A stretch of 45,769 bases of DNA, taken from positions 1 through 45,769 of the forward strand of contig JADGBW010000012.1 in the NCBI GenBank assembly GCA_015231305.1, written 5' to 3'. This DNA comes from Magnetococcales bacterium. Its GTDB lineage: Bacteria > Pseudomonadota > Magnetococcia > Magnetococcales > JADFYX01. This document shows, in pieces, positions 11,605 through 43,767 of this stretch (position 1 is its first letter; every line of letters begins with the position of its first letter). The notes below the pieces were generated by a model. The model was not told the origin of the DNA. It saw only the letters and a list, made by a program, of their open reading frames with translations, and made no database searches. Made by a program: the position numbers and the translations under genes.

Positions 11605-14600
11605 CTAAGTGTTAAAATTATTAGATAAATTTTCAAGGTGCTCAATAGCCCCATCAAAATCATAACCTCCAACTGCTTTTTCTATTTTGTTCAAGCTGGA
11701 TGAATAAGGGCTGTTTGCCAGTTGTTCACTAAGCCTTTCTACCACCTCTATTGCTTCTGCATCATCATCTTCTAGTAGTTCACGCAAACGCTCTATATCT
11801 ACTTTTACCTTGGCTATATCAATGGGTTTATCATTATCGCTAGTGTTTGTATTGTTATTAGCAAGTGTAGCAATGGATGTTTGTACTATATCAAGATTTT
11901 GGGCTACCTCTGGCAATATTTTTCTTGCAGAGTCAATATCACCTTCTTTAATTGCTGACTCTAAAATAGTTGCAACCTTTTGCAGCTCTTGGGCCCCAAT
12001 ATTACCAGCTACACCTTTTAAAGTGTGAGCCAACCGCTCTGCTAACTCATGGTCACTATCATCAATAGCCATGGCTACCTGATCTGGCACTCCATTCTGA
12101 TTTTCACTAAATTTGTTCAGCAATTTTTTGTAGGATCTACTATTACCCCCTATACGGTCTAACCCAACCTCTACATTTATGCCGGGTAGTGGAGGCAATA
12201 TATCATCTTTTGCCGTATTTTTATTGGTAGTTGTGGCTACAGCAGCAACTGGGTTTGCTGGTGTAATCCACTTTGTCATGGTGTTGAACATCTCATACAC
12301 ATTTATTGGTTTACCAATGTGACCGTTCATACCTGCTTTTTCAGCTTTTTCTAAATCAGAAGACATCACATTTGCCGTCATGGCTATTATTGGTAAATCT
12401 TTAAATTTTTCTTGTTCTCTTATTTTACTAGCAGCAGTATAGCCATCCATAATTGGCATTTGTACATCCATTAACACACCATCAAAAACTTCACCTGAAT
12501 TTAGTATATCTAATGCTATTTGCCCATTTCCGGCTGTTTTGGCACTAATTCCACCATTTGCTAATAGCTCTAAGGCCAGTTCTTGATTTATTTCATTATC
12601 TTCTACAAGTAATAGGTGCGCCCCCCTCAAAGCTTGCATAGCCACAGTATTTTCTTGAGAATGTCGTGCTACGCCATCTTCACGAACAACCCCCCTACCC
12701 AACACTTCACCAATTGCATCAAGAAGTGAAGAAGGAGTAACAGGTTTGGATAGTATAGAGTTAATAACTACCCCCTTTTGTTCTGCTACCTGCATGGCTT
12801 CATCTCGCCCATATGCTGTAACCATTATAACAGCAGGGGGAGCTTCATCGGCCTCTGTTTGTAGTTGCTCCATACAAGACACCCCATCCATACCGGGCAT
12901 TTTCCAGTCCATAAGCACAATATCAAAAGCAATTTGTTTTGCTTTAGCGTTAGCAACCTCTTTTAAAGCAGCATTTCCATCATTAACAACAACTACCTCC
13001 ATGCCAAAGCTCACAGCCATGGTAGAGAGAATTTCACGAGCGGATGCATTGTCATCTACCACCAGCACCTTTAAGCCTGATAACTCCTCTCTCTTTACTA
13101 TCATTCTTGGTTTTGGGTTAGCTTGAATACCCAAACGGGCGGTAAACTGGAAACTACTGCCAACCCCAGGTTCACTTTCAACCCAAATATCACCTTGCAT
13201 CATCTGGGTTAAACGTTTGGAGATAGTCAAACCAAGACCAGTACCACCATATTTACGTGATGTAGAGCTATCTGCCTGACTGAATGATTTAAACAGCTTG
13301 CCACGCTGCTCGGTTGTCATGCCTATGCCTGTATCACGCATATTAAAATGCAACAGTGCGGTTTTATCTCCTATTTCTTTAATTTTAGTTTCAAGTACAA
13401 TTTCACCTTTTTCTGTAAACTTAACCGCATTGTTGCCTAAATTAACCAAAATTTGCCCTAGTCTTAATGGGTCACCAACTAGAGCTGTGGGAATATCAGG
13501 TGCAGTATCAAAAAGCAGTTCTACCCCTTTATCTTCAGCTTTTAAGCCCACAAGGTTAGCAAGATTATCCAGCACATCTTCTAAATGAAAATCCACCGCC
13601 TCCATATCTAGCTTGCCTGCTTCAATTTTAGAGAAGTCTAGAATATCGTTGATAATACCCAACAGTGCCTCAGCAGAACGGTTGACTTTTTCAATATAGT
13701 TGCGCTGTTTGTTGGTCAACTCAGTTTGCAGTGCTAAATATGACATACCAATAATGGCATTCATGGGGGTGCGAATTTCATGGCTCATGTTAGCTAAAAA
13801 GTCTGACTTGGCTTTGTTAGCCTCTTCAGCAATGGTGCGAGCCTTTGCCAGATCTTTTTCTGCTGCTTTTTGCATGCTTATGTCATACATCCAGCCAAGG
13901 TTTGCTGCTTCACCCTGATAAACAGTGTGCATAAAAGTTGCTAGCACTTCTCTTATTTCACCATCAGGGCCATTAATTGCCATCTCCACATCCCTGGCAA
14001 CTCCATCACGCTTCATAATATCAAATGCTGCATCTCGCTGTTCTAGCTTGGCATAAATAGGGTCTACAGGATCACCAACATTAATAGAGGAAATCTCCTT
14101 TATGCGTTGATTGCCAAAAACTAAATCTCTTTTAGAGTTAACTATACCAACAGCTATAGGTGCAGATGCCAACATCTCTTGCAGTCGCTGCTCCCCTTCC
14201 CTAAAACGTTCTTCACTCTCTTTTAACAACTGCTCTGCCGCTTTTTGTTCTGTTATATCTTGGTAAACCCCATACATATATTTAACCTTGCCATCTTCAT
14301 CTCGAACTAACTTTCCTGCTGCATGTAGCCATATAATTTTGCCATCAACAGGACGTTTGTAAGCATATATGGAGTCATATTTCTTATATTTTCCATCAAT
14401 TGCCCCTTGGTAACGCTCTGCTGTCTCTTCTGATGCTGCAACGTTGGCTTCTACAAGTCGTGAAAACCACTCATCTTGCAGGTGATAACGCCCATCTTCC
14501 CGCAGCTCTTCTCCTAACATCCTAGCTGCCCGTTCCGATTGATAATAAAAATCTGGCTCACTGTAATCTACATGCCAATATCCGCTATTGGTTAGCTCTA

Positions 14601-17600
14601 GGGCAATATCACTTAAGAAATTATTGCGCTTGATCTCCTCCTCCATAGCTTTACGTTCTGTTATATTTTCAAAGGCAATTGCTGCTCCACCTCCTGCCTC
14701 TATCTTAATGGGTGCTGCACTAACACTTATCCAAACCAAATCGCCTTGGGGACGATAAACACCCATTTCAACATTAAAAATCATACCTTCACCAGCAATT
14801 ACCCTTGATGCCGGATACTCCTCAACTGGCATATCTGTGCCATCTGGTCTAATAATGCGCCAATTTCCTTCTCGCAGACCTCGCATTTTATGTTCATCTT
14901 TACTAACACCTAAAACATCCTCTGTAATTGAGTTTGCTTCGAGAATTTCTCCCTCTTTGCTGAACATAACCACACCAATAGGCAGTGCCTCAAAAAGAGC
15001 GTTAAGTTTCTCTTGAGAACGCCTTATTTTATCCTCACTCTCTCTTTTAGCCTCTTCAGCTTTAACCCGCTCGGTTAAATCATGTAATACCACCATGAGA
15101 GCAGTCCGACCTTCTAAATCAATAGTATTGAGATTTACCTCTACTGGTAATTCATCTCCATTTTTCTTCTTATGCATCCAGTCAAAACGTGTCCAACCTT
15201 TCGCAAAAGCTTCCTCTACATGTTCAGTTGAGCGTTTTTTAGACTCTCGTCCATCAGGTTGAAACTCGGGTGATATTTCTAATGGGCTGCATTGCAGTAG
15301 GTCTTCTTTGTTAGCAAACCCAAGTAGGTTAACAGCAGCTTTATTGCAAGCAACAAAGTTACCATCATCATATATCAGGTTAGGGTCCACAGAGGCTTCA
15401 AACAGTACTTGAAAACGCTCCATACTCGCCTTTAAATCTGCTTCAGCATCTTTTGCTTTGGTTACATCAGCTGTCATGGCAACAAAGTGGGTTACCTCAC
15501 CATCTTCATTGCTAACAGGGGCAATAGAAATTGAACCCCAATAGTGAGTTCCATCTTTACGGCGATTAAGAATTTCGCTCTGCCACACACCACCTTGTAA
15601 AATACTATCCCACATCTCTCTATACTGCTCTTTTGTGGTCTCTCCACTTTGTAATATGCTTGGGTTGCGACCAATTGCCTCTTGGCTACTGTAGCCAGTT
15701 ATTGTTGTAAATGTTGGGTTTACGTACTCTATAACCCCTTTTATATTGGTTATAACAACACATAGGGGGCTTTGCTCAACTGACTGCACAAGTTTACGCA
15801 ACTCTTTGGTGCGCTCATCAACCAACAGTGTTAGATATTCTTTGGTTTTATCCCCCAGCCAAATACCCATGCTGGTGGAAAATAGAGAAAGAATAACCGT
15901 TAAACCAAGTGCACCAAGAACTAAATTTCGTACAATATAATAGTTTTGTAGTGCTACATCTTTATCAACTTCTGTCGCCAGCCCTATACCAAGATGTGGA
16001 GAGTACCGCCAAACACCAAAAACTTTCACACCGCGATAATCACGGTAGCCTTCAATGTTAATTCCGTTATGTTTTGCTGTTACTTCTGCTGCCATTAAAG
16101 TTAAAGGCCATGACTCTTGTTTGTTAGCTGGCACAAATCCCGTTAGTAAATTTCCACCAGGGTCGGCAACTCTAAAGCCAAAACTATCTGTATTAAATAG
16201 TCTGTTTATATCATCTTCAAAACGTGATTCTGTAATAAAATGCCCGCTGTTATCTACTGCATAGGTCTCGCCAGTATTCATTAAACGGCCTGAACGTGTA
16301 ATGCGATTAATAGCTGTATTTGGAGAAAAACGAACGGTTAATACACCTATGATTTTATTGTTATTTTTACGGATAGGTGTTGCTATAAACATTGTCGTGG
16401 CTTTTTTATCTATGTTGCCGTTAATATCCTTAAGTGGCACATCAGAAATTGAAGGTGGAATAAACACAGTTTCACCAGCAAAAGCCCGTTTTAGTAGCTC
16501 TGGGTACTGAGTAGCAATAAGATTTTTTATACCAAGGTTGCTGTCTCGCATAGAACCAACACTGGTATAATTTGGATCTATAATAAAAAATCCTTTTGCT
16601 CTCATTCTGGCTAGGCGTGGGTTTATAAGTTCACGAATTTGGGCAAGGTTGGTATTTTTTTTAAGGTCATCTCTATTTGTAGATGACTGCAAAAGACGAC
16701 TGGCTAAGGTTATTAACTCTGGGTTGTTTGCAATATCAATTACATAATCTTCATGGCCTTCCAACCATGTTTCTAATGATTGCAGAACCGCTTTATTAAT
16801 AACCGTAAGCTCATCACCCACACCAGTTCGTATGTCAGTATTTATTCGCTTAAGAGACAACAGTGCCAAAGCAATTACCGCTGTTAAAAAAAGCACCATT
16901 GCTGCTACTCCCACCCGTCTTATTTTGGGGGAGTTAAATAGCTCTGCTCCTCGTTGAGCTGGCAGACGACTTAAAAGGCGAGGAATAACAAGGACAAAGG
17001 CAACAAGCACCGCAGCTAAAGCAATCCAAGCTAACATCAATCCATAATTAAGTTCACTCTTTAAAACAGGTAGAGAGTCCTCTTTTACTACTAACTCATC
17101 TTCAGCATAAATTGGGTCTACCAAACCAAACCATTTATTATAGATCTTGTCATATTGACCAGTTGACTTGACCATACTAAGACCCTGGTTTAAATGTACT
17201 AAAAGCTCAGAATTGCCTTCTTGAACCGCAAAACCAACCCCCCGTTCTGATATTTTTATTGGTGGGCCAGTAATTTCAATGTTGTCTAGGGCCAAATCTT
17301 TGATTAACAACAGGCTAGAAAGCCTAGTACCAAAAAGTGCATCCCCCTGTCCTTCTGAAAGCTTTTTAAGTGCTTCAGATAGAGATTTTGTTAAAATTAG
17401 GTTATGGGTAAAACCACGTTTTGTAAGATATTCGTGAGTAGCATCTCCCTTCATGACAATAACATCACGGTCTCGCAGTGCATCTAGTGATTTAATGCTT
17501 TTTTCACCCTTACGAATAAAAATGGCTGAATATGCTGCTGTATGGGAGGTTGAAAAATCGAATACCTTATCTCGTTCAGCAGAATAAGCAACTAGGGGTA

Positions 17601-20064
17601 AAGCATCAATTTCACCTTTTTCTAGTGCTGTTCTTACCTCATCCCAAGGGCCAACTTGAAATTGCGCCTTTATGCCCATGGTTTTTGCTACAGCCTTGAA
17701 AAGATCCACACTAAAGCCATCAGCCTTACCATCTTTATCCACCGTAGCAAAAGGTGGGTAATCTAGCTCACTACCCACTTTGATAACCTGCAGTTTTTTT
17801 AACTTCTCATTTTTAGAAACTGAACTATCACCAATGGATTTAATGCCTAGCCAACGACGCAATAAGGTGCGTTTTTCTTCAACTGTTACGCTAGACAACC
17901 CTTTTTCAATAATATTTAGCAAAGGCTTAGATATATCTTTACGAACACCAATCCTTACTTTAAAAATATCATTGCCTTCAAGACCCGAACGGGCAGCAAC
18001 CTTAAGACCTAAAAGGCTGTTCTTCTCAAGTGTGTAGTTAACTACTGCATGGCTGCCTATAAAACCATCCGCTCTACCAAAGGCAACCTCCTCCAACCCT
18101 TCTAAAAAGCTATTCACCAAAACTATTTCAATATTTGGATATTTAGTTTTGACAGAATCTTCAAAATAATAGCCTTTGACTATAGCTAGTTTTTTTCCTT
18201 TCATGTCATCTATACTGCCAATATCATTACGTTTTTGCTGAGTAATAATAACAATTGGATTGGTTATATAGTGTGTTGAAAAATCGGAAAATTTTCGCCG
18301 TTCAGGTTGATCAAATATTGCTGGTAATACATCAATTTTTCCAGCTTTGTATTGCTCTAAAAGCTGCGACCAACTCAAACCTTTTATAAATTCAATATTT
18401 AACCCGGTTTTCTCTCCTATAAGACGTATAAGATCTATTGAGAAACCTTGGGGTTTGCCATCTTCAATAAAGTCAAAAGGGGGCCAATCAGTTTCGTTGC
18501 CAACCTTTATCACAGGATTTGCCTCAATCCAGGCCATCTCCTCCATTGTTAATTGCAGTTGCATTTGTAAAAGGTGTGCATTGGACCCAAAAACTCTGTG
18601 TTTTGAGTTTTTAACCCAGTTACTTTCCAGCTGTATTTTTTCTTGCTGGTTAAATAAAGCCAATCCATCATTAACTTTTTTGAGCAAAGCTTTATTATTT
18701 TTAATGACGGCTCCATATACTGCATTAGAAAAATATGGTTTTGCTAACGCACTTATTTTTCCACTCCAGCCTAAATCATCTAATAGAGCTTCCATGGTTA
18801 AATCTTCACCAATGGCTGCATCTACCTCACCAGTCTTAAGGGCTTCAAGTACAGTGGCCCAACTAGGATAAGTTTTTAAATTAAGGTCAGGAACTCTGTC
18901 GCGAAGTTCACGGGCTTGATAACTCCCCTTTAAAACCCCAACTAAGCGTTCTCCAAACTGTGAAGGATCTTTAGGCAACTTGATACCAACCCGATGATAA
19001 AAACTGGAATTTATTTTATAAATGGGGCTGGAAAATTCTAAATATTTTTGTCGCTCTTTATTAAAAAATAGACCAGAATGGATATCCGCCTCACCTTGCT
19101 CCATGGCACTGAGAGTTCCTTCCCAGTTGCTCATGCGAAAACGTACTTCATTACCGGTTTTTTTTGCCCAAGCCTGCCAAAAGTCAACCATAAGCCCAGC
19201 TGGCTTGCCAAATGAAGTCATTTTGGTGAGGGGGGGATAATCACGATCCATCGCGATTATAAGTGCTTTGCCTTCTCCTCTTGAGGTCCACTTGCGTTTT
19301 ATCTCAAGTCGTTCAGCATCTAAAATAAGATCAAAACCACTGTTAATATTTTTTAAAAGGGGTTGGTTGCCTTTTGTTACAGCTACAAACCAATCGTTGG
19401 CATATAGCAATTGCGATGGTTTGATGTTATATTTATTAATTAAGTTTGCTTTTTGTAAGTGGTATATACCAGTTGGGGTATCAGCAGCAAAGGCCCTTAG
19501 TTTACCAGATTTTAAGGCATCAATAATATCATCATAACTTGAAAATGGTACAATTGCTTCAGAGGGTAGGATCTCCTTTAGAAACCCTTCAACAAAATCA
19601 CCTCGTAAAACACCAACTCTATAAGATGCCATCTCCGAAAGGTCAGAGATTGGTGGTAAGGCTTTATGAAGAAAAATGTGGGTATTGGTACGACTAAGTG
19701 CTTGACCATAATCTAAAAACTCATCTCGTTTTGCACTGAAAAACAGACCAGCATGAGCATCTACTTTGCCACTGCCTACTACTTTTAAAGACTCTGCCCA
19801 ACTATATGGTTTAAATGTTATGGCTTGATCACTCATTTTGGAAAAATGCTTCCAAAAATCAATAATCAAACCATCAGGGTTACCCTGCTCATTTTGAAAC
19901 TGAAAAGGGACACAATCTATGCAAAAGGCAACTGAGATTGGGGATTTACTATCAGTTTTAGGGCTGATATGTGGTTGTTGAGCAAACAGTTGAGAACTAA
20001 TAAATAAACCAACCCAGGCTAACAGAATATTGAACAAGAAAATTTTCTTGTATTTACAAATCAT
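11605..20064 (-). CDS. Giant (2819 aa) hybrid sensor kinase: signal peptide, 4x SBP_bac_3, TM, TM, dCache-like, TM, 5x PAS, HisKA, HATPase, REC, REC, Hpt
   Basis: Four repeats with SBP_bac_3 features (e.g. VGNETDWPPFDFIEDGKPQGFSIDLIRLIGEKTG; VGSELDYPPFATVDKDGKADGFSVDLFKAVAKTMG); PAS blocks; [17 protein letters not shown]; two REC; AHTLKGVAGNIGA. Confidence 0.92.
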   Translation of the reverse strand: MICKYKKIFLFNILLAWVGLFISSQLFAQQPHISPKTDSKSPISVAFCIDCVPFQFQNEQGNPDGLIIDFWKHFSKMSDQAITFKPYSWAESLKVVGSGKVDAHAGLFFSAKRDEFLDYGQALSRTNTHIFLHKALPPISDLSEMASYRVGVLRGDFVEGFLKEILPSEAIVPFSSYDDIIDALKSGKLRAFAADTPTGIYHLQKANLINKYNIKPSQLLYANDWFVAVTKGNQPLLKNINSGFDLILDAERLEIKRKWTSRGEGKALIIAMDRDYPPLTKMTSFGKPAGLMVDFWQAWAKKTGNEVRFRMSNWEGTLSAMEQGEADIHSGLFFNKERQKYLEFSSPIYKINSSFYHRVGIKLPKDPSQFGERLVGVLKGSYQARELRDRVPDLNLKTYPSWATVLEALKTGEVDAAIGEDLTMEALLDDLGWSGKISALAKPYFSNAVYGAVIKNNKALLKKVNDGLALFNQQEKIQLESNWVKNSKHRVFGSNAHLLQMQLQLTMEEMAWIEANPVIKVGNETDWPPFDFIEDGKPQGFSIDLIRLIGEKTGLNIEFIKGLSWSQLLEQYKAGKIDVLPAIFDQPERRKFSDFSTHYITNPIVIITQQKRNDIGSIDDMKGKKLAIVKGYYFEDSVKTKYPNIEIVLVNSFLEGLEEVAFGRADGFIGSHAVVNYTLEKNSLLGLKVAARSGLEGNDIFKVRIGVRKDISKPLLNIIEKGLSSVTVEEKRTLLRRWLGIKSIGDSSVSKNEKLKKLQVIKVGSELDYPPFATVDKDGKADGFSVDLFKAVAKTMGIKAQFQVGPWDEVRTALEKGEIDALPLVAYSAERDKVFDFSTSHTAAYSAIFIRKGEKSIKSLDALRDRDVIVMKGDATHEYLTKRGFTHNLILTKSLSEALKKLSEGQGDALFGTRLSSLLLIKDLALDNIEITGPPIKISERGVGFAVQEGNSELLVHLNQGLSMVKSTGQYDKIYNKWFGLVDPIYAEDELVVKEDSLPVLKSELNYGLMLAWIALAAVLVAFVLVIPRLLSRLPAQRGAELFNSPKIRRVGVAAMVLFLTAVIALALLSLKRINTDIRTGVGDELTVINKAVLQSLETWLEGHEDYVIDIANNPELITLASRLLQSSTNRDDLKKNTNLAQIRELINPRLARMRAKGFFIIDPNYTSVGSMRDSNLGIKNLIATQYPELLKRAFAGETVFIPPSISDVPLKDINGNIDKKATTMFIATPIRKNNNKIIGVLTVRFSPNTAINRITRSGRLMNTGETYAVDNSGHFITESRFEDDINRLFNTDSFGFRVADPGGNLLTGFVPANKQESWPLTLMAAEVTAKHNGINIEGYRDYRGVKVFGVWRYSPHLGIGLATEVDKDVALQNYYIVRNLVLGALGLTVILSLFSTSMGIWLGDKTKEYLTLLVDERTKELRKLVQSVEQSPLCVVITNIKGVIEYVNPTFTTITGYSSQEAIGRNPSILQSGETTKEQYREMWDSILQGGVWQSEILNRRKDGTHYWGSISIAPVSNEDGEVTHFVAMTADVTKAKDAEADLKASMERFQVLFEASVDPNLIYDDGNFVACNKAAVNLLGFANKEDLLQCSPLEISPEFQPDGRESKKRSTEHVEEAFAKGWTRFDWMHKKKNGDELPVEVNLNTIDLEGRTALMVVLHDLTERVKAEEAKRESEDKIRRSQEKLNALFEALPIGVVMFSKEGEILEANSITEDVLGVSKDEHKMRGLREGNWRIIRPDGTDMPVEEYPASRVIAGEGMIFNVEMGVYRPQGDLVWISVSAAPIKIEAGGGAAIAFENITERKAMEEEIKRNNFLSDIALELTNSGYWHVDYSEPDFYYQSERAARMLGEELREDGRYHLQDEWFSRLVEANVAASEETAERYQGAIDGKYKKYDSIYAYKRPVDGKIIWLHAAGKLVRDEDGKVKYMYGVYQDITEQKAAEQLLKESEERFREGEQRLQEMLASAPIAVGIVNSKRDLVFGNQRIKEISSINVGDPVDPIYAKLEQRDAAFDIMKRDGVARDVEMAINGPDGEIREVLATFMHTVYQGEAANLGWMYDISMQKAAEKDLAKARTIAEEANKAKSDFLANMSHEIRTPMNAIIGMSYLALQTELTNKQRNYIEKVNRSAEALLGIINDILDFSKIEAGKLDMEAVDFHLEDVLDNLANLVGLKAEDKGVELLFDTAPDIPTALVGDPLRLGQILVNLGNNAVKFTEKGEIVLETKIKEIGDKTALLHFNMRDTGIGMTTEQRGKLFKSFSQADSSTSRKYGGTGLGLTISKRLTQMMQGDIWVESEPGVGSSFQFTARLGIQANPKPRMIVKREELSGLKVLVVDDNASAREILSTMAVSFGMEVVVVNDGNAALKEVANAKAKQIAFDIVLMDWKMPGMDGVSCMEQLQTEADEAPPAVIMVTAYGRDEAMQVAEQKGVVINSILSKPVTPSSLLDAIGEVLGRGVVREDGVARHSQENTVAMQALRGAHLLLVEDNEINQELALELLANGGISAKTAGNGQIALDILNSGEVFDGVLMDVQMPIMDGYTAASKIREQEKFKDLPIIAMTANVMSSDLEKAEKAGMNGHIGKPINVYEMFNTMTKWITPANPVAAVATTTNKNTAKDDILPPLPGINVEVGLDRIGGNSRSYKKLLNKFSENQNGVPDQVAMAIDDSDHELAERLAHTLKGVAGNIGAQELQKVATILESAIKEGDIDSARKILPEVAQNLDIVQTSIATLANNNTNTSDNDKPIDIAKVKVDIERLRELLEDDDAEAIEVVERLSEQLANSPYSSSLNKIEKAVGGYDFDGAIEHLENLSNNFNT

Positions 20065-20409: not shown

Positions 20410-20853
20410 ATGCAACCTGAAATCACTCTAGAAGCCCTTGTAAAATTTATCAAAAAAATACAAGGCTTTGAGATTTTGTCTCATGGGGAAATTAAACAGC
20501 ACATCGCTCCAATTATAAGCATATCCATGTATGCCCCAGGACAGCTTATTTTAAAACAAGGCGATGAGGGTAAATCTGTTTTTTTTCTCTATAGCGGACA
20601 TGCGCGAGCTAATGTTCATGTAAACTCTGAAACAACCCTGCATAATGACATGAAAGAGGGTGGCATTTTTGGTGAGCTGGCACTTGTAACAAACGAAAAA
20701 AGAAGTGCCGATGTAGTAGCAGTTTCAGATGTTTGCTGTCTATCCATAGATATTGAAACTTTCCAGAAAGTAATGTTAAACAATTGGAAAATTACAAAAG
20801 CCATTGCTATACTTATAGGCAACAGAAGAGTAAAACAGCTTCCTGGTTATTAA
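20410..20853 (+). CDS. Single-domain cyclic-nucleotide-binding protein
   Basis: LILKQGDEGKSVFFLYSGHARA...GGIFGELALVTNEKRSADVVAVSDVCCLSID; phosphate-binding cassette FGELAL...KRSA. Confidence 0.85.
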   Translation: MQPEITLEALVKFIKKIQGFEILSHGEIKQHIAPIISISMYAPGQLILKQGDEGKSVFFLYSGHARANVHVNSETTLHNDMKEGGIFGELALVTNEKRSADVVAVSDVCCLSIDIETFQKVMLNNWKITKAIAILIGNRRVKQLPGY

Positions 20854-20950: not shown

Positions 20951-23497
20951 TTATTTATAACCTACCTCCAACTTTTTATATAAACGATGGGCTACACCCA
21001 TTGGCGCTGCTTGTTTTCTCTCTATCGACTGAACATCACGTATTGTAGTAGCCTTAAAAGGTTTAACAGTTAAAGGTGGGGTTGCTTCTCCACGTGTCTG
21101 GTTATTAGCTGCATTTTCTGGTTTTTTATTTTCCAGTATCACACTCTTTTTTGGAGTTACAGCAACACTTTCTTTATCTCCTGATGGACCTTTTGCCCCC
21201 ATGGGACCTTGTTTTCCTGAAAATCCAATTATACCTCTCTCACCCCTAGGGCCAGTATCTCCTTTTGGTCCACGCTCACCTTGTTTTCCTTGCTTTCCTT
21301 CCACCCCAATTGGGCCAATTGCTCCCACCTCCCCTTTTTCTCCGACATCCCCTTTGGGGCCAGTCTTCCCTTGAGGTCCAGTATCCCCTTTTGGGCCAAT
21401 TTCTCCTTTTACTCCTTGCTCTCCTGGTGTGCCTCTGGGTCCAGGTCTACCTTTAAGACCTTGCTTTCCTCTATCCCCTGGCTCCCCTTTAACACCTTGC
21501 CTGCCTTTTGCTCCTGTATTGCCTTTTTTGCCCTGTTTTCCTTTGGCTCCAGGTTTGCCTTCAGGGCCAACTTTCCCTTGTGGTCCTGGTTCACCTTTGT
21601 CGCCTTTTTCTCCTATTTTCCCATTTTCTCCTGCTGGGCCAACCTCACCTTTATCACCTTTTTCACCTTTATCTCCCCGCTCCCCTTTTTCACCTGTATT
21701 ACCTATTTCTCCTTTAGGGCCAACTTCACCTTGTGGGCCTTGCTCTCCAACATCACCTTTAGGGCCAGACTCACCTCTATCACCTTTGGGACCAGTTAGC
21801 CCTATAGGACCAATATCTCCTTTAGGGCCAACTATACCCTGTATACCTTGCGCGCCATCTTTACCTGCCGGACCTGTTTTTCCTAATGGCCCATGATCAC
21901 CTTTATCACCTTTAATACCAGGCTCTCCCTTATCTCCTTTTTCACCAGCTGGACCTGTTTTTCCTACTGGGCCAACAGCTCCTACTGGGCCAACTTCACC
22001 TGTTTTACCCATTGGACCTGCTGGGCCAACTTCACCTGTTTTACCCATTGGACCTACTGGACCAACTTCACCTGTTTTACCCATTGGACCTGCTGGGCCA
22101 ACTTCACCTGTTTTACCCATTGGACCTACTGGACCAACTTCACCTGTTTTACCCATTGGACCTATTGGGCCAATTTCACCAACTGGACCCATTACACCAG
22201 CTGGACCTTGAGCACCAACTGGTCCAATTTCTCCTTTTTCTCCTACATCTCCTTTAGGGCCAGGCTTTCCTTCAATGCCAGGCGAACCATCTGCCCCTTT
22301 TGGGCCACGCTGACCAATATCTCCTTTTATTCCGGGAACACCTTGCTCACCCTTTTCACCGCGTTCTCCTTTTTCACCACGTTCACCCTTTTCACCGCGT
22401 TCACCCTTTTCTCCTGGCACTCCCTTTGGGCCAATTTTACCCTCTTTGCCAGTCGGACCAATAGGACCAATAGGACCAACCTGCCCAGTTATATCTATAG
22501 ATTTAATCTCTTTTTGCAGTTGAGATACCTTGTAGTCAACACGGGTGATTGGCTCATAAATATTTTTAGCAAAAAGATCGGCAATTATGGTTTCCAACAT
22601 ATCCAGAGATGGTGTCTCTTTTTGACTGTTTTTTTCACCCTGCTCAATTTCTCCTCGAAGGGTTAAAATATTTCTCATCCATCTCTTTTCATCTTTTATC
22701 TTAACTTCATGCCTAAATAAGGCTTGGCTCATACTGTTAAACTCTTCAACAGATTGATGAGGAATTCCACCTATGGGTTGTAACTGATGACCATAATCAC
22801 CTAGCTTGATCAGCGACATACCGTTTTGTAGATAATTAACCCCACTTTCAAACCAAACCCTAAACAGGTACCAAATAACAAGCATAGAGAATAAAAAGAA
22901 GAGACTACATATAGTTATGTCTTGTCTGCTGGCAGCAGTGCTAATATGATTTATTGCTGATTTTTGTACTAAAAAACTAGTAACACCATGCAGGGTTGGT
23001 TTTATCCTCTCACTTTTATTTTCTGCTTTTGCTAATTGCAACCAGATAGGGTGAAAATATTGATACACCTCTTTTTCATTATCATCTAGATTAGTAACAA
23101 ACCATACTTTAGCCTCTGAATTATTTTGAAAATATTTAAGTGCTCTGTTCTCAATGTCGTTACTATTGTCACTTTGAGGAACCATTCTATTTAAAATATA
23201 ATTAAACTGCATATCTACTGGATATTGCTCTTGATAACTATTGAAAATTTTAACCATTACTTGTTGAGTAAGAAAATAGTCCATAGTCAAGCCAGAAAAC
23301 TCACCAGAAACAGAGCTTTTTTTCTTAAATTCTTGGGCTGAAACAGTCAACAACTGGTGGATTTGAGTTGTTTTATCTTTAAGGATCTCTATACCGTCTC
23401 TTTGTGTACGGCTAGAAATAAGATACTCAAATAAGACGATATTCATCAAAAAGAGCAGAGCTATAATAGTTACAGTCCATAGCCTAGACATTATCAT
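20951..23497 (-). CDS. Receptor-like membrane protein (TM-periplasmic loop-TM-HAMP-like) with long collagen-like Gly-X-Y domain
   Basis: TM1 IIALLFLMNIVLFEYLI; about 160-aa loop; TM2 ITICSLFFLFSMLVIWYLF; HAMP-like GMSLIKLGDYGHQLQ...EEFNSMSQALFRHE; then uninterrupted (GXY)n from GQV to GDK. Confidence 0.9.
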   Translation of the reverse strand: MIMSRLWTVTIIALLFLMNIVLFEYLISSRTQRDGIEILKDKTTQIHQLLTVSAQEFKKKSSVSGEFSGLTMDYFLTQQVMVKIFNSYQEQYPVDMQFNYILNRMVPQSDNSNDIENRALKYFQNNSEAKVWFVTNLDDNEKEVYQYFHPIWLQLAKAENKSERIKPTLHGVTSFLVQKSAINHISTAASRQDITICSLFFLFSMLVIWYLFRVWFESGVNYLQNGMSLIKLGDYGHQLQPIGGIPHQSVEEFNSMSQALFRHEVKIKDEKRWMRNILTLRGEIEQGEKNSQKETPSLDMLETIIADLFAKNIYEPITRVDYKVSQLQKEIKSIDITGQVGPIGPIGPTGKEGKIGPKGVPGEKGERGEKGERGEKGERGEKGEQGVPGIKGDIGQRGPKGADGSPGIEGKPGPKGDVGEKGEIGPVGAQGPAGVMGPVGEIGPIGPMGKTGEVGPVGPMGKTGEVGPAGPMGKTGEVGPVGPMGKTGEVGPAGPMGKTGEVGPVGAVGPVGKTGPAGEKGDKGEPGIKGDKGDHGPLGKTGPAGKDGAQGIQGIVGPKGDIGPIGLTGPKGDRGESGPKGDVGEQGPQGEVGPKGEIGNTGEKGERGDKGEKGDKGEVGPAGENGKIGEKGDKGEPGPQGKVGPEGKPGAKGKQGKKGNTGAKGRQGVKGEPGDRGKQGLKGRPGPRGTPGEQGVKGEIGPKGDTGPQGKTGPKGDVGEKGEVGAIGPIGVEGKQGKQGERGPKGDTGPRGERGIIGFSGKQGPMGAKGPSGDKESVAVTPKKSVILENKKPENAANNQTRGEATPPLTVKPFKATTIRDVQSIERKQAAPMGVAHRLYKKLEVGYK
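21981..22160 (-). repeat. Five tandem 36-bp coding repeats (GPMGKTGEVGPV/A units)
   Basis: CCT(A/G)CTGG(G/A)CCAACTTCACCTGTTTTACCCATTGGA x5, starting at 21981, 22017, 22053, 22089 and 22125; units 2 and 4 are identical, units 3 and 5 are identical. Confidence 0.95.
22350..22418 (-). repeat. 18-bp tandem coding repeats (GEKGER)n
   Basis: CCCTTTTCACCGCGTTCT / CCTTTTTCACCACGTTCA / CCCTTTTCACCGCGTTCA / CCCTTTTCTCC. Confidence 0.85.
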
Positions 23498-24240: not shown

Positions 24241-25074
24241 TCAACTACTGCTATTAATACTAAAAATTAATTTGTTAAGTGCATCTAAGGAGCTTTCAAA
24301 ACCTGGTTTTAATTCTACAACCAAAAGGTCGATAAGTTTGTTGTCTCCATTCATAGCATATTGTTGTATATCAGCAACTTGGCCAGCAAGCTTTTCTAAG
24401 CCTAGGTGAATCGCCATGCCTTTCATTCTATGGCTTACTTCAATTAACCCCTCCATATTTTTTGAAGCTGCAAATCGTTCAATTTGTTGCACCATACTTG
24501 TACCAGAACTTTTAAATGAATCTACCACATAAAAGAGTTTATCAGGAGACAACGAAGCAACCAGCTTTTGTATATATGGTTTATTTAACAACAAGTTGCC
24601 TTCGTCATCATAAACATGTTTTTCCATGCCACCTTTAACCTGTTCTAGATTATTAGAAATTTGAATTTTGCAATCAGCATAGTCATGCAAGCTATCTAAC
24701 AATAATTTTCTTTCAATTGGTTTAGTTAGGTATAGGTCGCAACCCGCGCAATAACTGGCATCTTTATCTTCTTTAAATGCCATTGCTGTGAGAACTGCGA
24801 TGGGAGTTCTTTTAATATTTCTGTCTGATTCTTCCCAGGCACGAATTTTTTTGATAGTTGTAAGGCCATCCATTTGTGGCATCATTATATCAATAAAAAC
24901 CATGTTATAATGGTTACTCTGCATTTTTTTAAAAGCATCAACACCATTGTCAGCGGTATCAACATTACAGTAACCATTTAAAAATGCTATAAATGTGAAC
25001 AGGCTAGAGGGGTCATCGTCTACTAACAAAACCTTTGGCAGAGCCTGTCTATTGCTAGTTAATTCGTTATTCAA
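24241..25074 (-). CDS. Response regulator REC + Hpt protein
   Basis: VLLVDDDPSSLFTF, MVFIDIMMPQMDGL, LTAM, LTKPIE; Hpt motif EVSHRMKGMAIHLGLEKLAGQ. Confidence 0.85.
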   Translation of the reverse strand: MNNELTSNRQALPKVLLVDDDPSSLFTFIAFLNGYCNVDTADNGVDAFKKMQSNHYNMVFIDIMMPQMDGLTTIKKIRAWEESDRNIKRTPIAVLTAMAFKEDKDASYCAGCDLYLTKPIERKLLLDSLHDYADCKIQISNNLEQVKGGMEKHVYDDEGNLLLNKPYIQKLVASLSPDKLFYVVDSFKSSGTSMVQQIERFAASKNMEGLIEVSHRMKGMAIHLGLEKLAGQVADIQQYAMNGDNKLIDLLVVELKPGFESSLDALNKLIFSINSSS

Positions 25075-25618: not shown

Positions 25619-28600
25619 TTGAGACACTGGCTGGACAGATTTCCTCTAGCTATTCAAGCCGTTGTTGTCGGCTTATTAGTAACTATATTAATTAGCTTTG
25701 GGATAGATCGCTTTCAATCTTCACGTTTTAGAGGTATAGCATCTTATGCTTTACATAAAGAACTTGGGCATAACCTACATGTCGCCCGAGAAAGTATGGA
25801 CAGCTATAAACAACAATTCAATAACCTCTCTCGTTTGTTAGCAGAAAATTACCGCCTTATACACTACACTAATACCAGCACCTGGCAAAAAAACAAAAAA
25901 ACTATAACAAACAAAACCCCGCCTCAATGGCTCCCCCATGTTGGTATGTGGCGCAATGTACTGCCTAGCCATTTTCTACTTTTCTCCAAAGATAAGCAGC
26001 TAAACGAAACCTACTCACCCACAGGAGAGACAATACCTAATTGGATTATACAACAACTATCTCACTACCTAGATAAAAGTAACAACCAAGCCATTACCAC
26101 GGGCACTAAAGATAAAATTTCTTTTATTACTACTTCTACTATAAACAGCGATATTGATGGCAAGCCTGTAGGATTTCTTATGCTCATAAGGGAGATAAAT
26201 GACAACCTTATGAATAAAATTTATCCTTACATTGGAGACGATGGGCAAGTTGTATTAATAATGGCACACTCTCCCACACGTGTGATTGCCGATAACCTAC
26301 CCCATGATATCGAGGAGAACCGGCTTGAAACTATTTTAAATAATTATGAGATAGTCGGTAAAGAATATGAAAATGGTAGCAGCTCTGAGGTTGCTATTAA
26401 CCTTGCTGTTGTGGCTAAAAAAAGACGCGTGCAAGAGTTTATCGATCATCTTTTAGGTGAAGAGAGACTTTCACGAATTTTAATGGCTAGTATTTTAATT
26501 GCTGCACTTTTAGGGCTGGCCCTTATTGTTGTCTTTCGAGTTCGTAAGTTAACAGCAGGTGTACACAGGGCTTCTCAAGAACATCTCGGCATTACTATTG
26601 AGAGCAATAGGTTTGGTGATGAATTATGCATACTTTCTCAAGCTATGTCGAAACTAGAAGAGAGCAATGCACGGGCTTTAAGGTCCAGGGCCATAATTAC
26701 TGAGTTAGTGCGTGCAGGAAAAAAACATAAAAGCTTAACTTCCTTAATGGAAAAGTCCTTAAGACTATTACAGACTGGAACATGGCAGATTAAAAATAGT
26801 AAGGGGGCTATTTTTCTTATAAATGCCAAGAGTAAAGAGCTAGATTTAACGGCGCAAAGCGGTCTAGAAAAAGATTTTGCCAACAAATGCAAAACATACA
26901 ATTTAGGCCATATACTCTCCTTACAAACGGTTAAAAACAGAGAAATACTTTTTATCGAAAAAAATGAAAATGATCACGAAATATATTCTGATGGTTTATT
27001 TGAACACGGCTACTACTCCATACCAATTATTTCACAAAACAGTTTATTGGGTGTTATAATACTTTTTCTTAATGAAAATATTGTAATAGATACAGAGGAA
27101 GAGGACTATCTATGGAGCATATCTCATAGTATAGCTAGCTTGTTAGAACATTTTAATACTGATCATTTATTAACTGAAGCTAAAAAATCTGCTGAGCTTG
27201 CCAACCAAGCAAAAAGTAATTTTTTGGCCAATATGAGCCACGAAATTCGCACCCCCATGAACGCTATTATTGGTATGGGGCATCTTTTATTAAAAACTGA
27301 GATATCTGATAAACAACATGATTATCTAAATAAAATTCAGGGGGCATCACGCACTTTACTTGGTATTTTGAATGATATTTTGGACTTTTCCAAAATTGAA
27401 GCAAATAAACTGCAAATGGAAAGTGTGAATTTTTCAATAAAAGATGTACTACAAAACGTCACTGACATAATTATCACCAAAACTGATGAAAAAGGAATTG
27501 AGTTAATACATAATTGCCACACTGACACTCCATTGAACCTAATTGGTGACCCACTACGTCTTGGTCAGGTACTTATTAATTTAGCTAATAATGCCGTGAA
27601 GTTTACGGATTCGGGAAAGATAATAATTTCCATTGAGCCTGCACATCTCACAGAAAAATTTGCTTGGCTTAAATTTTCAGTAAGCGATACAGGCATAGGA
27701 TTAACCCAAAAGCAAGTTGATAATCTTTTTGTTGCATTCAGCCAAGCCGATACATCTATTACCAGAAAATATGGTGGAACTGGACTTGGATTAACTATCT
27801 GTGAAAGATTAGTAGGTATGATGGGTGGCAATATTAGTGTTAAGAGCGAACATGGCAAAGGGTCGGTTTTCTCCTTCACAGCAGCTTTTGATATCCAACC
27901 CCAACACAGTGTAACAACCTTAGATAATTTAAAAAATATAGCTAAAAACGACAATACTACCACTAAATTATCTCCAAAAATTGCACAAATAGAATCTGAA
28001 TTACGAGCAACAATTGGAGGAGCAAAAGTTTTATTGGCTGACGATAGCTCTATCAATCAACTAGTTGGCAAGGAAATTTTAGAAGACCTCGGTCTAGCTG
28101 TCACAGTTGTAAATAATGGTCAAGATGCGGTTGATATGGCTAAGGAGCTACATAAAAATATTGAGATAATATTTATGGATCTGCAAATGCCAATTTTGGA
28201 TGGTTTTGAGGCAACAAAATATTTGCGCAGTGATCCTGATACAATGAACATTCCCATTGTTGCTATGACAGCTCATGCGATGATTGGAGATAAAGAGAGA
28301 TGTCTTTTAGCAGGCATGAACGACTACGTTGCTAAACCTATTGAGCTTGACCAGCTATATGCATGTCTGAAAAAATGTGTAAAACCCAGAAAAATTGACA
28401 AAACAGCCTTACCACAACCCCAAAAAAATAAAAGAGAAGATATGAACCTACCAGATGCACTTCCTGGAATAAACATAGAAAATGGTTTAGCTCGTGTTGC
28501 TGGAAATAAACGCCTATTTCACGAGTTAGTTACATCTTTTCTAAAAATTAACATTTCAGTTGTTTCAGAAATTAAAATTGCCCTTGGTGAAAATAATAGA

Positions 28601-29071
28601 GACAAGGCACTAAGGCTGGTACACTCAATTAAAGGAACCTCTGGCAGTATTGGAGCTTTTGGGTTGTCCACATCTGCAAAAGAGCTGGAGAAGAACATTA
28701 AAGAGGGAGACGACAACTCTATTTATGATGCTCTTAAGCACTTTGAGGTATCTCTGCAACCAGTATTTAATTCTGCTAAACTTCTGGAAGATAACTTTAC
28801 CATACAAAATTCTGCTATAGATCCTGAGATGGTTATAGAGTTAGACAAAGGGCAAGTTACACAACTAATTGCAACTTTAAAACAGTCTCTTTTAAACAAT
28901 GATATGCTGGCAAAAAAACAGTTGGTAAATCTTGAAAAACACCTCTATGGTCATGGCTTTAAAGAAGAGGTCGATACATTAAAAGATAATATTAAATCTC
29001 TAAATTTTAGCAGTGCTTTAAAGTCATTAACTGTTGTTGCAGATAAATTCGGCATAGAAAGAGAGCTGTAA
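25619..29071 (+). CDS. Hybrid sensor kinase: TM-periplasmic sensor-TM-HAMP, GAF-like, HisKA, HATPase, REC, Hpt
   Basis: TTG start preceded by [67 protein letters not shown]. Confidence 0.88.
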
Positions 29072-29076
29072 CCATA

Positions 29077-31848
29077 ATGGAATTTGAAAAAGATAAACTC
29101 CATTCGATCTTAATTGTGGATGATGAACCTAGCAACATTGAACAACTCAATGAAGCCCTTCAGGATGAATATCGCATTCTATTTGCCAGAAACGGTGAGG
29201 ATGCGTTAAAAATCGCAGAAACCCAATACCCAGATCTTATTCTGTTAGATATCATGATGCCCGGAATGGGCGGACATGAAGTATGCCAGCGATTAAAAGC
29301 CAACCAAACCCTATGCAATATACCAATATTTTTTGTAACTGCTATGACAGATATTGCCGAGGAAACTGCTGGCCTAGAGATGGGGGCAGATGACTATCTC
29401 TCCAAACCCATTAATCCATCTTTGGTAAAAGTACGGGTAAGAAACCGACTTAAAATTAAAAAAGCAGAAAAATTAATTATTCAGGCTTACGAATATTTAA
29501 AACACAGTGAAGCACGTACAAGAGCAATTTTAGAAAATGCATTAGATGCCATAATTACAATTGAGCAAGACGGTAAGATTCTTGAGTTCAACCCAGCAGC
29601 AGAAGAACTTTTTGGCTTTACAGCTGATAAAGTTATAAATAAAAATTTATCTACTCTAATTAATCAATATAAACTTTTAGATGCCATCATTGAAGATATT
29701 GCATCACAAGCAAAACAGAAACATAGAACCCCCAATGTAAAACGTAGGATAAAACTACCAGGTAAACGCGCCGATGGTAATATTGTAAACCTTGAGATAG
29801 GCCTAACTGCTATTTTACAAAAGGGACAACTGACATACACCTGTTTTATCAAAGATATTACCGACTACAAACAGTTATTATCTTCATTAAGAGAAACCTT
29901 GGCTGTGGCAGAATCGTCCAACCAAGCTAAAAGTGAATTTTTAGCCAACATGAGCCACGAAATACGCAGCCCTATGAATGCTATAATGGGTATGACAGAG
30001 TTGGTTTTGGCAACAGAACTTAATGAAAATCAACAAGAAAACCTAGAGATTGTGCAAAGTTCAGCTAACAATTTAATGACTCTCATAAATGATATATTAG
30101 ACTTTTCAAAAGCTGATGCCGGACAACTTTACCTTGAGAAAATTCCGTTTGATCTTCGAGGAATGTTAGAGAATAACTGCGATAACCTAGCAGTTTTAGC
30201 TCATAAAAAAGAGTTAGAACTCTATTTTGATGTAGCCGACAACATACCACCATTGGTTGGCGATCATTTACGTCTTAGCCAAATTATCACCAACCTAGTC
30301 AACAACGCCTTTAAATTTACAAACGAAGGTGAAGTTTCCATACTGGTAAAGAAAAATGACCAAGTAAAATGTCGTAAAGACCATATATGTTTACATTTTA
30401 CTATAACAGATACCGGTATTGGTATTCCTGCTGATCGTCTCACAACCATTTTCGAACAATTTACCCAGGTCGATGCCTCAACAACCCGTAAATACGGTGG
30501 TACTGGCCTTGGCCTTACGATATCCAAACGTTTGGTGGAGTTAATGGATGGTGATATTTGGGCGGAAAGCCAAGAAGGCATAGGAAGTGTTTTTCACTTC
30601 ACAGCCAAATTTGGAATTGGCTCAAGGTCGAAAACAATACCCCTTAAAAAGTCTATTAAAAGAGATATACAGCTATATCAACCTTCTCACCTTTTGGGTA
30701 TTCGCATAATTATTGCTGACAGCCATAAAACTGGAAGAACAATAATAAAAGCCATGATGAAGCGGTTTGGAGCAGAAATACAAGATGTTGCTAGTGGTTC
30801 TTCCCTGCTAAATGCTCTACGGCTGTCAAAACAAAACAACTACCCTTTTGATGTGGTTATAATAGATAATGAACTAGACTTTACCCATGAAGAAAGCTTA
30901 GAGATTTCATCTCTTTATACTAACAACATAATAATGATGCTGCCAACCAATATGAGCTATCCGCAAAATGCTCCTGGTTATCAAACTCAAGTTGACAATT
31001 CTCTTAAAAAACCTATAAAACAATACGCGCTACTTAAAAGAATTGACCTTATAATAGGGCGAATAACTAAATCTGAAACCATAAAAACAACGGCAAAAAC
31101 AGCTACTAAACTATCAATAAATTCTCTTAATATTTTACTGGTAGATGATCTCCCCACCAATCAAAAACTGGCCTATGATATTTTAACCCAAGCTGGTCAT
31201 AATGTAGTTGTGGCAAACAATGGCTATGAGGCATTACAAAATTTAGAGAGTGACCCATTTGATTTGGTACTTATGGACCTTCACATGCCAGAGATGGATG
31301 GTTATGAGGCAACTAAACGTATCCGTAACGGCGAAGAAAATGGTAAATGGGACAAAAACATCCCTATAGTCGCTGTAACTGCCCACGCTATGCAAGCAGA
31401 GACAAAAAAGTGTCTTGATGCTGGTATGAACAAATATTTAAGCAAGCCATACAGTGCATTAGATCTGCTGGGTACAATAGAGTCTTTTGCTAAAAAGCAG
31501 AATCCAAAAACTAGCAAAAAAATTCCTAAAAAAGAGTCTCCAATAATAATAAAGGTAAAAAGTGATGCTGAGACATTAAAAACTTTACAAAATAGTTTTC
31601 TTACACAAGGACCACAACACTTAAACCTACTGCATCAAGCCTTAAAAGATAAAAGGCTTGTGCAAACCTTAAAAGAGGTAGACTGGATTAGAAATGCTGC
31701 TTCTGGCATCGGTGCTAACCGGGTTAAAATTAGTGTGATACTTCTTAAAGGAGCTGTTGAGATGAAACAGTGGAGCGAATCTCTTAATATTTTTGTTAAC
31801 CTTAAGGAAGAGTTTAAAAAGGTTGTTGAGGTTTTAGAAGAGAGATAA
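29077..31848 (+). CDS. Hybrid kinase: REC, PAS, HisKA, HATPase, REC (atypical), REC, degenerate Hpt
   Basis: ILIVDDEPSN...[92 protein letters not shown]; Hpt-like tail with D in place of H (KEVDWIRNAASGIGA). Confidence 0.87.
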   Translation: MEFEKDKLHSILIVDDEPSNIEQLNEALQDEYRILFARNGEDALKIAETQYPDLILLDIMMPGMGGHEVCQRLKANQTLCNIPIFFVTAMTDIAEETAGLEMGADDYLSKPINPSLVKVRVRNRLKIKKAEKLIIQAYEYLKHSEARTRAILENALDAIITIEQDGKILEFNPAAEELFGFTADKVINKNLSTLINQYKLLDAIIEDIASQAKQKHRTPNVKRRIKLPGKRADGNIVNLEIGLTAILQKGQLTYTCFIKDITDYKQLLSSLRETLAVAESSNQAKSEFLANMSHEIRSPMNAIMGMTELVLATELNENQQENLEIVQSSANNLMTLINDILDFSKADAGQLYLEKIPFDLRGMLENNCDNLAVLAHKKELELYFDVADNIPPLVGDHLRLSQIITNLVNNAFKFTNEGEVSILVKKNDQVKCRKDHICLHFTITDTGIGIPADRLTTIFEQFTQVDASTTRKYGGTGLGLTISKRLVELMDGDIWAESQEGIGSVFHFTAKFGIGSRSKTIPLKKSIKRDIQLYQPSHLLGIRIIIADSHKTGRTIIKAMMKRFGAEIQDVASGSSLLNALRLSKQNNYPFDVVIIDNELDFTHEESLEISSLYTNNIIMMLPTNMSYPQNAPGYQTQVDNSLKKPIKQYALLKRIDLIIGRITKSETIKTTAKTATKLSINSLNILLVDDLPTNQKLAYDILTQAGHNVVVANNGYEALQNLESDPFDLVLMDLHMPEMDGYEATKRIRNGEENGKWDKNIPIVAVTAHAMQAETKKCLDAGMNKYLSKPYSALDLLGTIESFAKKQNPKTSKKIPKKESPIIIKVKSDAETLKTLQNSFLTQGPQHLNLLHQALKDKRLVQTLKEVDWIRNAASGIGANRVKISVILLKGAVEMKQWSESLNIFVNLKEEFKKVVEVLEER

Positions 31849-42657: not shown

Positions 42658-43767
42658 ATGGCAAAAAGTAAAAAAGCTGGCGATATATTTGTCGAAGTCT
42701 GGAATAAACCAGCTATATTTTCAACTCTAAATATTGATGAGCAAGATCTTTTTCTACGTATTGCCCGTAAGGCGGGTCTGCTCTCGCGTTTTTGCAACAT
42801 CCTCGATACAGCTCAACTTAGCGACTCCCTCACCCCAAAAGTGAAAAATCATCTACAAGGCGCAAGAGTTGTAGCCCAAGAGGATGCACGGATGTTGCGT
42901 TGGGAGGTTAACCGTATAAAAAGGGCTTTTGTCGGCTCAGATCTTCCTCTTATTCTCCTTAAAGGGGCCGCATATTTAATATCCGATATCCCCATGGCCC
43001 AAGGAAGGCTGGTTGCAGATGTCGATATTCTTTGTAAATTATCAGATATTGCCCAAGTTGAAGAGTTGCTTAGTAACAATGGCTGGCAAGGGGTAGAATT
43101 AGAACCTTACGATCAACGATACTATCGTGACTGGATGCATGAAATACCACCCATGCGCCATAGTGAAAGATTAACAGAGGTAGATGTCCACCATGCTATT
43201 TTGCCTAAAACTGGTAGATTAAACCCCGATTCAAAACTACTTTTACAAGATATTGTTCCAGTAAAAGAAGAGACTAATATCTATACATTATCCCCTGTAG
43301 ATATGACCCTTCACGGTGTAGTACACCTTTTTTATGATAGCGATTTTGACAAAGGTTTAAGGGGTTTAACCGACATGGATGGCCTGTTTCGCCATTTTGG
43401 TAAGCAGGATGAATATTGGCAAGCCTTGATTCCCCGCGCAAGACAACTTAATTTAGCTCGTCCGCTATATTATGCATTGCAGATGGGGGTAGAGATAGTG
43501 GCAACTCCTGTACCTAAAACAGTACAGGAAGAGATTAAAACTCATGCTCCCATACAGCCAATTGATTGGTTGATGACTATATTAATGCGACGAATGATGA
43601 TCCCCAACCATCCTGAAGAGAAAAATTTTCTCTCTTGGTTAGCTTGGTTTTTACTTTTTATTCGTTCCCACTGGCTGCGTATGCCGCCAGGACTTCTATT
43701 TAAACATTTGACCAAAAAATGGGTCAGAAAGTGGCGTTTTGATGTGCGGAATCGTCGGACTGTTTGA
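42658..43767 (+). CDS. Uncharacterised nucleotidyltransferase family protein (PF14907-like)
   Basis: LPLILLKGAAYLISDIPMAQGRLVADVDILCKLSDI...EVDVHHAIL. Confidence 0.8.
   Translation: MAKSKKAGDIFVEVWNKPAIFSTLNIDEQDLFLRIARKAGLLSRFCNILDTAQLSDSLTPKVKNHLQGARVVAQEDARMLRWEVNRIKRAFVGSDLPLILLKGAAYLISDIPMAQGRLVADVDILCKLSDIAQVEELLSNNGWQGVELEPYDQRYYRDWMHEIPPMRHSERLTEVDVHHAILPKTGRLNPDSKLLLQDIVPVKEETNIYTLSPVDMTLHGVVHLFYDSDFDKGLRGLTDMDGLFRHFGKQDEYWQALIPRARQLNLARPLYYALQMGVEIVATPVPKTVQEEIKTHAPIQPIDWLMTILMRRMMIPNHPEEKNFLSWLAWFLLFIRSHWLRMPPGLLFKHLTKKWVRKWRFDVRNRRTV

Follow-up and report, generated by a model that had tools for sequence, protein, structure and literature searches.

The collagen-like proteins of bacteria that have been studied so far are mostly surface exposed (PMC4565658). 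Streptococcal Scl1 and Scl2, Bacillus BclA, Legionella Lcl and Burkholderia Bucl all join a long, hydroxyproline-free Gly-X-Y tract with charge pairs to an adjoining non-collagenous domain. The fold can do without hydroxyproline, as shown by eight collagens of bacteria that assembled into stable triple helices when produced in E. coli (PMC4066190). A second relevant group is the sCache_heme (DUF3365/Tll0287) family of receptors and sensor histidine kinases (PF11845). Its members have an extracytoplasmic Cache domain in which strands 3 and 4 are separated by a heme insert with the motif CxxCH; the motif is 99% conserved across the family, and the 2026 preprint that surveys the family does not mention collagen (PMC12889525).

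Here, we describe a gene in which these two kinds of protein meet. It lies on a contig of a draft MAG (G000) from a genus of uncultured magnetotactic cocci, the Magnetococcales; this whole contig, of 45,769 nucleotides, is hereafter the window. The predicted product shares the long tract, the charge pairs and the adjoining domain with the collagens named above, but whereas those are mostly found at the cell surface, its collagen follows C-terminally on a receptor-type anchor that is predicted to point to the cytoplasm. With sCache_heme receptors and kinases, which occur in the same bacteria, it shares continuous homology from the first transmembrane (TM) helix through the sensor domain and the second TM helix to HAMP; unlike the kinases, it has neither the CxxCH heme insert nor a kinase or other output, and would carry a collagen rod instead. 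Both component parts are of known kinds, and the architecture is new relative to the open-access literature that we searched. No description of an intracellular collagen as the output of a receptor scaffold was found there, and the literature on magnetotactic bacteria and collagen-like proteins, or on collagen-like proteins and histidine kinases or HAMP, held nothing on point. We favour, with a probability of about 0.5, a structural protein: a collagen rod in the cytoplasm that is tethered to the membrane by a retired receptor.

Architecture of the predicted protein

The gene and its parts are as follows.

20951..23497, minus strand: gene for the receptor-like collagen protein, 848 aa, ATG start (open reading frame)
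23417..23473, minus strand: TM1, residues 9-27 (hydropathy 2.41; kept in homologues; aligned with TM1 of the kinases)
22919..23416, minus strand: heme-less Tll0287/sCache-like sensor domain, predicted to be extracytoplasmic, residues 28-193 (hhalign)
22994..23035, minus strand: site of the absent heme insert (CxxCH), flanked by the final two strands, residues ~155-168 (aligned with four kinases that have CxxCH; published insert position, PMC12889525)
22862..22918, minus strand: TM2, residues 194-212 (hydropathy 2.32; aligned with TM2 of the kinases)
22703..22861, minus strand: degenerate HAMP-like segment, residues 213-265 (aligned to the HAMP region of the kinases)
22487..22570, minus strand: neck, a four-heptad coiled coil, residues 310-337, abutting the first triplet (a/d pattern)
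21173..22486, minus strand: collagen-like tract, 146 Gly-X-Y triplets, residues 338-775 (Pfam Collagen 3.3e-70; KGE/KGD enrichment)
20954..21172, minus strand: C-terminal tail, 73 aa, basic, motif SI-x-RKQ-x-AP-x-GV (alignment of three tails)

A Kyte-Doolittle analysis of the 848-aa protein gave exactly two TM candidates, which leave a loop of 166 aa between them, and found no third TM helix or anchor in the 73-aa tail behind the collagen tract. A first-pass annotation of the DNA had read the same features from the letters alone (two TM helices, a loop of about 160 aa, a short tail without a further anchor), and its 438 residues of uninterrupted Gly-X-Y are borne out (146 triplets, zero interruptions; Pfam PF01391, E=3.3e-70). 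In the whole protein, Pfam recognised only Collagen and a weak Tll0287-like match, and no HisKA/HATPase, MCP signalling or cyclase domain. The HAMP-like segment proposed at first pass aligns with the TM2-HAMP region of related kinases, although Pfam is blind to HAMP in the collagen protein. Antisense open reading frames over the collagen tract (21281-22666, plus strand) were set aside as by-products of the repeat.

The receptor part is homologous to heme sensor kinases

Comparing a profile of the collagen receptors with a profile of the DUF3365/Tll0287 sensor histidine kinases of the same class, we found that residues 2-270 align without a break (hhalign, 99.6%, 8.7e-25). The Tll0287-like match of Pfam (0.0011) lies below the cut-off. 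The initial guess, a Tll0287/DUF3365-like sensor, named the right kind of domain. The profile of the related kinases in turn matches Tll0287 itself (PDB 5b82, 1.6e-13); a second, weaker match (E 0.03) is to NarQ, in its TM2-HAMP region. In three related kinases Pfam reports a Tll0287-like domain (~1e-31), HAMP in two of the three (~1e-4; about 1.5e-4) and then HisKA, with HATPase seen in the two that are long enough to include it. The HAMP-like segment and the HAMP region of the kinases have GM-x(2)-I-x(2)-G and FNSM in common. Such receptors and kinases are abundant in the class (47 of 48 genomes).

All three homologues whose sequence extends over the position of the CxxCH heme insert lack it, and the alignment is gapped there. 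Since this insert defines the sCache_heme family, the collagen receptor is a heme-less derivative or a sister of that family and, by the defining feature, not a member; we consider it likelier that heme and kinase output were lost than that heme was never gained. An AlphaFold prediction of residues 1-336 (four sequences), of low confidence with a mean pLDDT of 51.9, has a long helix followed by four strands, with the final pair of strands (144-153 and 168-178) on either side of the site of the absent heme insert. A PDB fold search with this low-confidence model gave no significant hit, the heme sensors of Geobacter (3b42 and 3b47) reaching no better than E of about 0.4-0.8.

On which side of the membrane does the collagen lie?

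The relatives are built from a TM helix, an extracytoplasmic sensor, a second TM helix, HAMP and a cytoplasmic output. Because the homology to the kinases runs unbroken through TM2 and HAMP, a cytoplasmic collagen is the most economical reading and, judged from the sequence, a tract in the cytoplasm with the sensor loop outside appears most likely. Positive-inside charges by themselves do not settle the side: the 15 residues after TM2 contain 1-2 K/R in the collagen proteins versus 2-4 in the kinases, a weak bias. This weakness near the TM helices, together with the surface exposure of most studied bacterial collagens (PMC4565658), would suit an inverted topology or an exported tract, in which case the protein would be a collagen-like stalk of the usual kind, at the surface or in the periplasm, with its anchor in the inner membrane. 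We consider such a stalk quite unlikely, as the unbroken homology is to receptors that have a cytoplasmic output behind TM2 and HAMP, and as the protein has two TM helices only and no anchor following the tract. Nor did a known surface-anchored family emerge among the homologues: the N-terminus has its relatives among the heme sensor kinases, and searches with it brought up no surface family in phages, in plasmids or in 399 genomes of the phylum. The cytoplasmic placement put forward at first pass is supported by the homology to kinases of known layout, in addition to the number of helices, whereas the accompanying idea of a signalling rod is unproven and has been weakened, as discussed below.

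Collagen tract, neck and tail

KGE/KGD pairs, remarked upon as abundant in the first reading, number 27 in the tract; 2000 shuffles of the triplets gave 12.3 on average and never more than 21. The enrichment is present in two homologues. This is only consistent with a triple helix in the 848-aa protein. A triple helix formed without hydroxylation is feasible, given the eight bacterial collagens that folded in E. coli without hydroxyproline (PMC4066190). Among the homologues the tract measures 109 to 146 triplets and is always uninterrupted. Multiplying its residues by a triple-helix rise of 0.286 nm per residue, and assuming full folding, we calculate that the rod would extend over about 125 nm in the window protein and 94 nm in the homologue of genome G001.

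The neck shows a perfect a/d pattern over four heptads in both of these proteins (0 of 300 shuffles equalled either), and the heptads keep the same register although the two proteins are only 28% identical. After the first, the a positions are occupied by I and V; Ile and Val at the a positions of a coiled coil suit a trimer. At the other end of the tract, the tail motif is common, in part, to three genomes.

Distribution and selection

Is the joining of receptor and collagen a common motif in these bacteria? The receptor part was found in four of the five genomes of the genus examined, i.e. in three of the four besides the window genome. G001 has a full-length homologue (703 aa, 109 triplets, 28% identical to the window protein), while in G003 (65% identity) and G002 (50% identity) a contig end interrupts the gene and leaves the N-terminal part. 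On another G002 contig (L098), a collagen open reading frame begins at the contig edge and ends in the same kind of tail; it probably supplies the missing part of the interrupted G002 gene. No homologue was found in G004, which is 65% complete. Outside the genus, the N-terminus matches receptors and kinases, and no collagen protein was found among the loci inspected. In the 399-genome sample of the phylum, apart from the genus and the kinases, only weak matches occur beyond the class, and a scan of genome contigs gave matches in three genus MAGs only. The search for further TM-loop-TM-HAMP-(GXY)n proteins that the first-pass annotation had called for yielded three more genomes of the genus and no close relative elsewhere. 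Matches to the TM2-HAMP region at L015, L016 and L017 (other genera) and L019 (G001) were discarded as methyl-accepting proteins or kinases without collagen.

Against the G003 homologue, the N-terminal coding region has a dN of 0.24 and a dS of 1.43, and the resulting dN/dS of about 0.17 indicates purifying selection. This value bears on the notion of a kinase gene in decay, which lost its output domain and then gained a functionless rod by expansion of a simple repeat. Locally near-identical repeats (36-bp units at 21981-22180) and a tract length that varies between species would fit such a history. However, the selection on the N-terminal part and the conserved neck and tail argue against decay, as do the retention of the gene in three further genomes of the genus, the absence of frame breaks over a long tract and the enrichment of charge pairs, and we hold decay to be highly improbable.

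Other collagens in the class

Matches to Gly-X-Y were obtained in 35 of 48 Magnetococcia genomes, and most of those inspected resemble phage tail fibres. Like these, the receptor-collagen protein has a Gly-X-Y tract, which is matched by PHROGs tail-fibre families, and one could think of a prophage tail-fibre gene. Yet the PHROGs matches are confined to the repeat; the N-terminus, without phage or plasmid match, is unrelated to that of tail fibres and homologous to receptors; the protein has no phage anchor or receptor-binding tip; and the annotated neighbours are cellular genes. In view of the missing phage-type N-terminal anchor and phage gene context we rejected this origin, which we hold to be almost impossible.

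A second, unrelated collagen family was encountered in three other genera (G009, G010 and G015), at the following loci.

L092:878-2473, plus strand: apparently soluble coiled-coil collagen protein
L091:9098-10591, minus strand: apparently soluble coiled-coil collagen protein
L094:1930-4008, minus strand: apparently soluble coiled-coil collagen protein

These proteins have no TM helix and no recognisable signal sequence; a charged N-terminus is followed by a coiled coil with the motif LENMVPxQxQxLSQRxxDLSRQP and then by a long collagen tract. Strong matches to the family were limited to three genomes of other Magnetococcia families. As in the receptor-collagen protein, the coiled coil abuts the collagen tract and the location is apparently cytoplasmic, in the same class of bacteria; in contrast to it, the family has no TM helix or sensor domain and occurs in different genomes, and its neck motif LENMVPxQxQxLSQR is missing from the receptor-collagen protein. 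The family may possibly represent a second kind of cytoplasmic bacterial collagen, and its independent occurrence makes cytoplasmic collagen in the class more plausible. Judged by eye, the G010 gene adjoins aroA, cmk and other housekeeping genes.

Neighbouring genes and the possibility of signalling

Two neighbours directly flank the gene.

20410..20853, plus strand: convergent downstream neighbour, a single-domain cyclic-nucleotide-binding protein (Pfam cNMP_binding 3.8e-20)
24241..25074, minus strand: upstream neighbour, a receiver-Hpt protein (Pfam; its G003 orthologue, 71%, likewise lies directly upstream of the collagen gene)

Two-component proteins surround the gene, as first noted when it was described as sitting among sensor kinases. 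One of them, a hybrid sensor kinase of 2819 aa (11605-20064, minus strand), shows PAS, kinase, receiver and Hpt regions in its translation and, at its N-terminus, apparently several tandem extracellular solute-binding-like repeats. G001 and G002 also encode a relative of the cyclic-nucleotide-binding protein, at a distance of ~4-4.5 kb from their collagen genes. We rejected it as a functional partner, since the adjacency recurs yet there are several paralogues per genome. In G001, a 1235-aa protein without Pfam or PHROGs match is encoded between the cNMP-hemerythrin and collagen receptor genes (L007:3598-7305, minus strand).

The sensor kinases and the receiver-Hpt gene nearby, the latter directly upstream in both G000 and G003, raise the question whether the protein is still a signalling protein, working in receptor arrays or paired with heme-sensor kinases and the receiver-Hpt neighbour, with a rod that transmits or clusters signals. 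The retention of sensor domain and HAMP-like segment under selection would agree with this. Against it, G001 and G002 yielded no receiver-Hpt orthologue, the abundance of receiver genes in these genomes makes neighbours little informative, and the protein has no kinase, MCP or cyclase domain. The signalling rod is weakened by the absence of the CxxCH insert that is 99% conserved in the sensor family, and a dimeric HAMP receptor would not match a trimeric collagen in stoichiometry either. We regard signalling as unlikely, though it deserves consideration.

A proposed tethered rod inside the cell

How could a membrane-tethered cytoplasmic rod be built? We propose that the two TM helices anchor the protein in the membrane, so that the sCache-like domain, devoid of heme, faces outward and the HAMP-like segment inward. 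In the cytoplasm, the four-heptad neck would gather three chains and start a homotrimeric triple helix, to which Lys-Gly-Glu/Asp charge pairs would lend stability. The conserved basic tail at the far end of the rod might then bind a partner, and the rod could act as a tether, spacer or scaffold, not as a kinase-type output. The architecture, the homology, the missing heme insert, the selection on the N-terminus and the conservation of neck and tail are results of the analysis, whereas the cytoplasmic side, the trimer, the rod length and the tethering are inferred from them. Of the two roles suggested at first pass, scaffold and signalling rod, the scaffold or tether is the better half. HAMP receptors are generally dimers and collagen requires three chains; this mismatch in stoichiometry between a dimer-type receptor and a trimer-type rod counts against our explanation. 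Also, no conserved partner gene was found, the receiver-Hpt gene being common to two genomes only and the cNMP proteins having paralogues.

If the predicted topology holds, a membrane receptor scaffold in a bacterium would have collagen in the cell interior as its output, and a receptor that lacks both cofactor and enzyme would have been turned to structural use. The protein would also provide a genetically encoded cytoplasmic rod of ~100 nm in bacteria that need mechanical positioning of magnetic organelles.

Proximity to magnetosome genes

In G002, the collagen gene is followed outward by a flagellin gene and then, at L008:3973-6485 (minus strand), by mamC, mamD and an Mms6/MamD-like gene, with scores of 131 bits for mamC and 254 bits for mamD (cut-off 100 each). 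The collagen gene lies 1.5 kb from mamC with only the flagellin gene between. In G000, G001 and G003, however, mamC is on contigs other than that of the collagen gene, the gene order of G002 being different, and we rejected membership of a magnetosome cluster across species on these grounds (mamC elsewhere in three of four genomes). The magnetosome link is for the same reason a lead and not a finding. That the collagen forms an intracellular cytoskeletal tether, by which magnetosomes or the motility apparatus are attached to the inner membrane, is accordingly a long shot in our estimation.

The hybrid kinase of the window at 25619-29071 has an orthologue 1.2 kb from mamC in G001 (ER1bin7), a genome with a published magnetosome gene cluster (PMC5955933). 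There (L045:1781-10144, minus strand), the genes after mamC encode a periplasmic-binding-like protein and two hybrid kinases, which are orthologues of, or similar to, those of the window at 25619-31848; in G000 (L044) and G003 (L046), mamC is preceded by another binding-like gene and another kinase. A recurrent sensor module at magnetosome genes is possible. Elsewhere in the window, we noted a protein with TPR and a glycosyltransferase of family 41 (O-GlcNAc transferase type; 1292-3478, minus strand), two PEP-CTERM/XrtA-type glycosyltransferases (TIGR03087 and TIGR03088; 36602-39029, plus strand) and, further on from these, an asparagine synthase-type gene (43739-45631).
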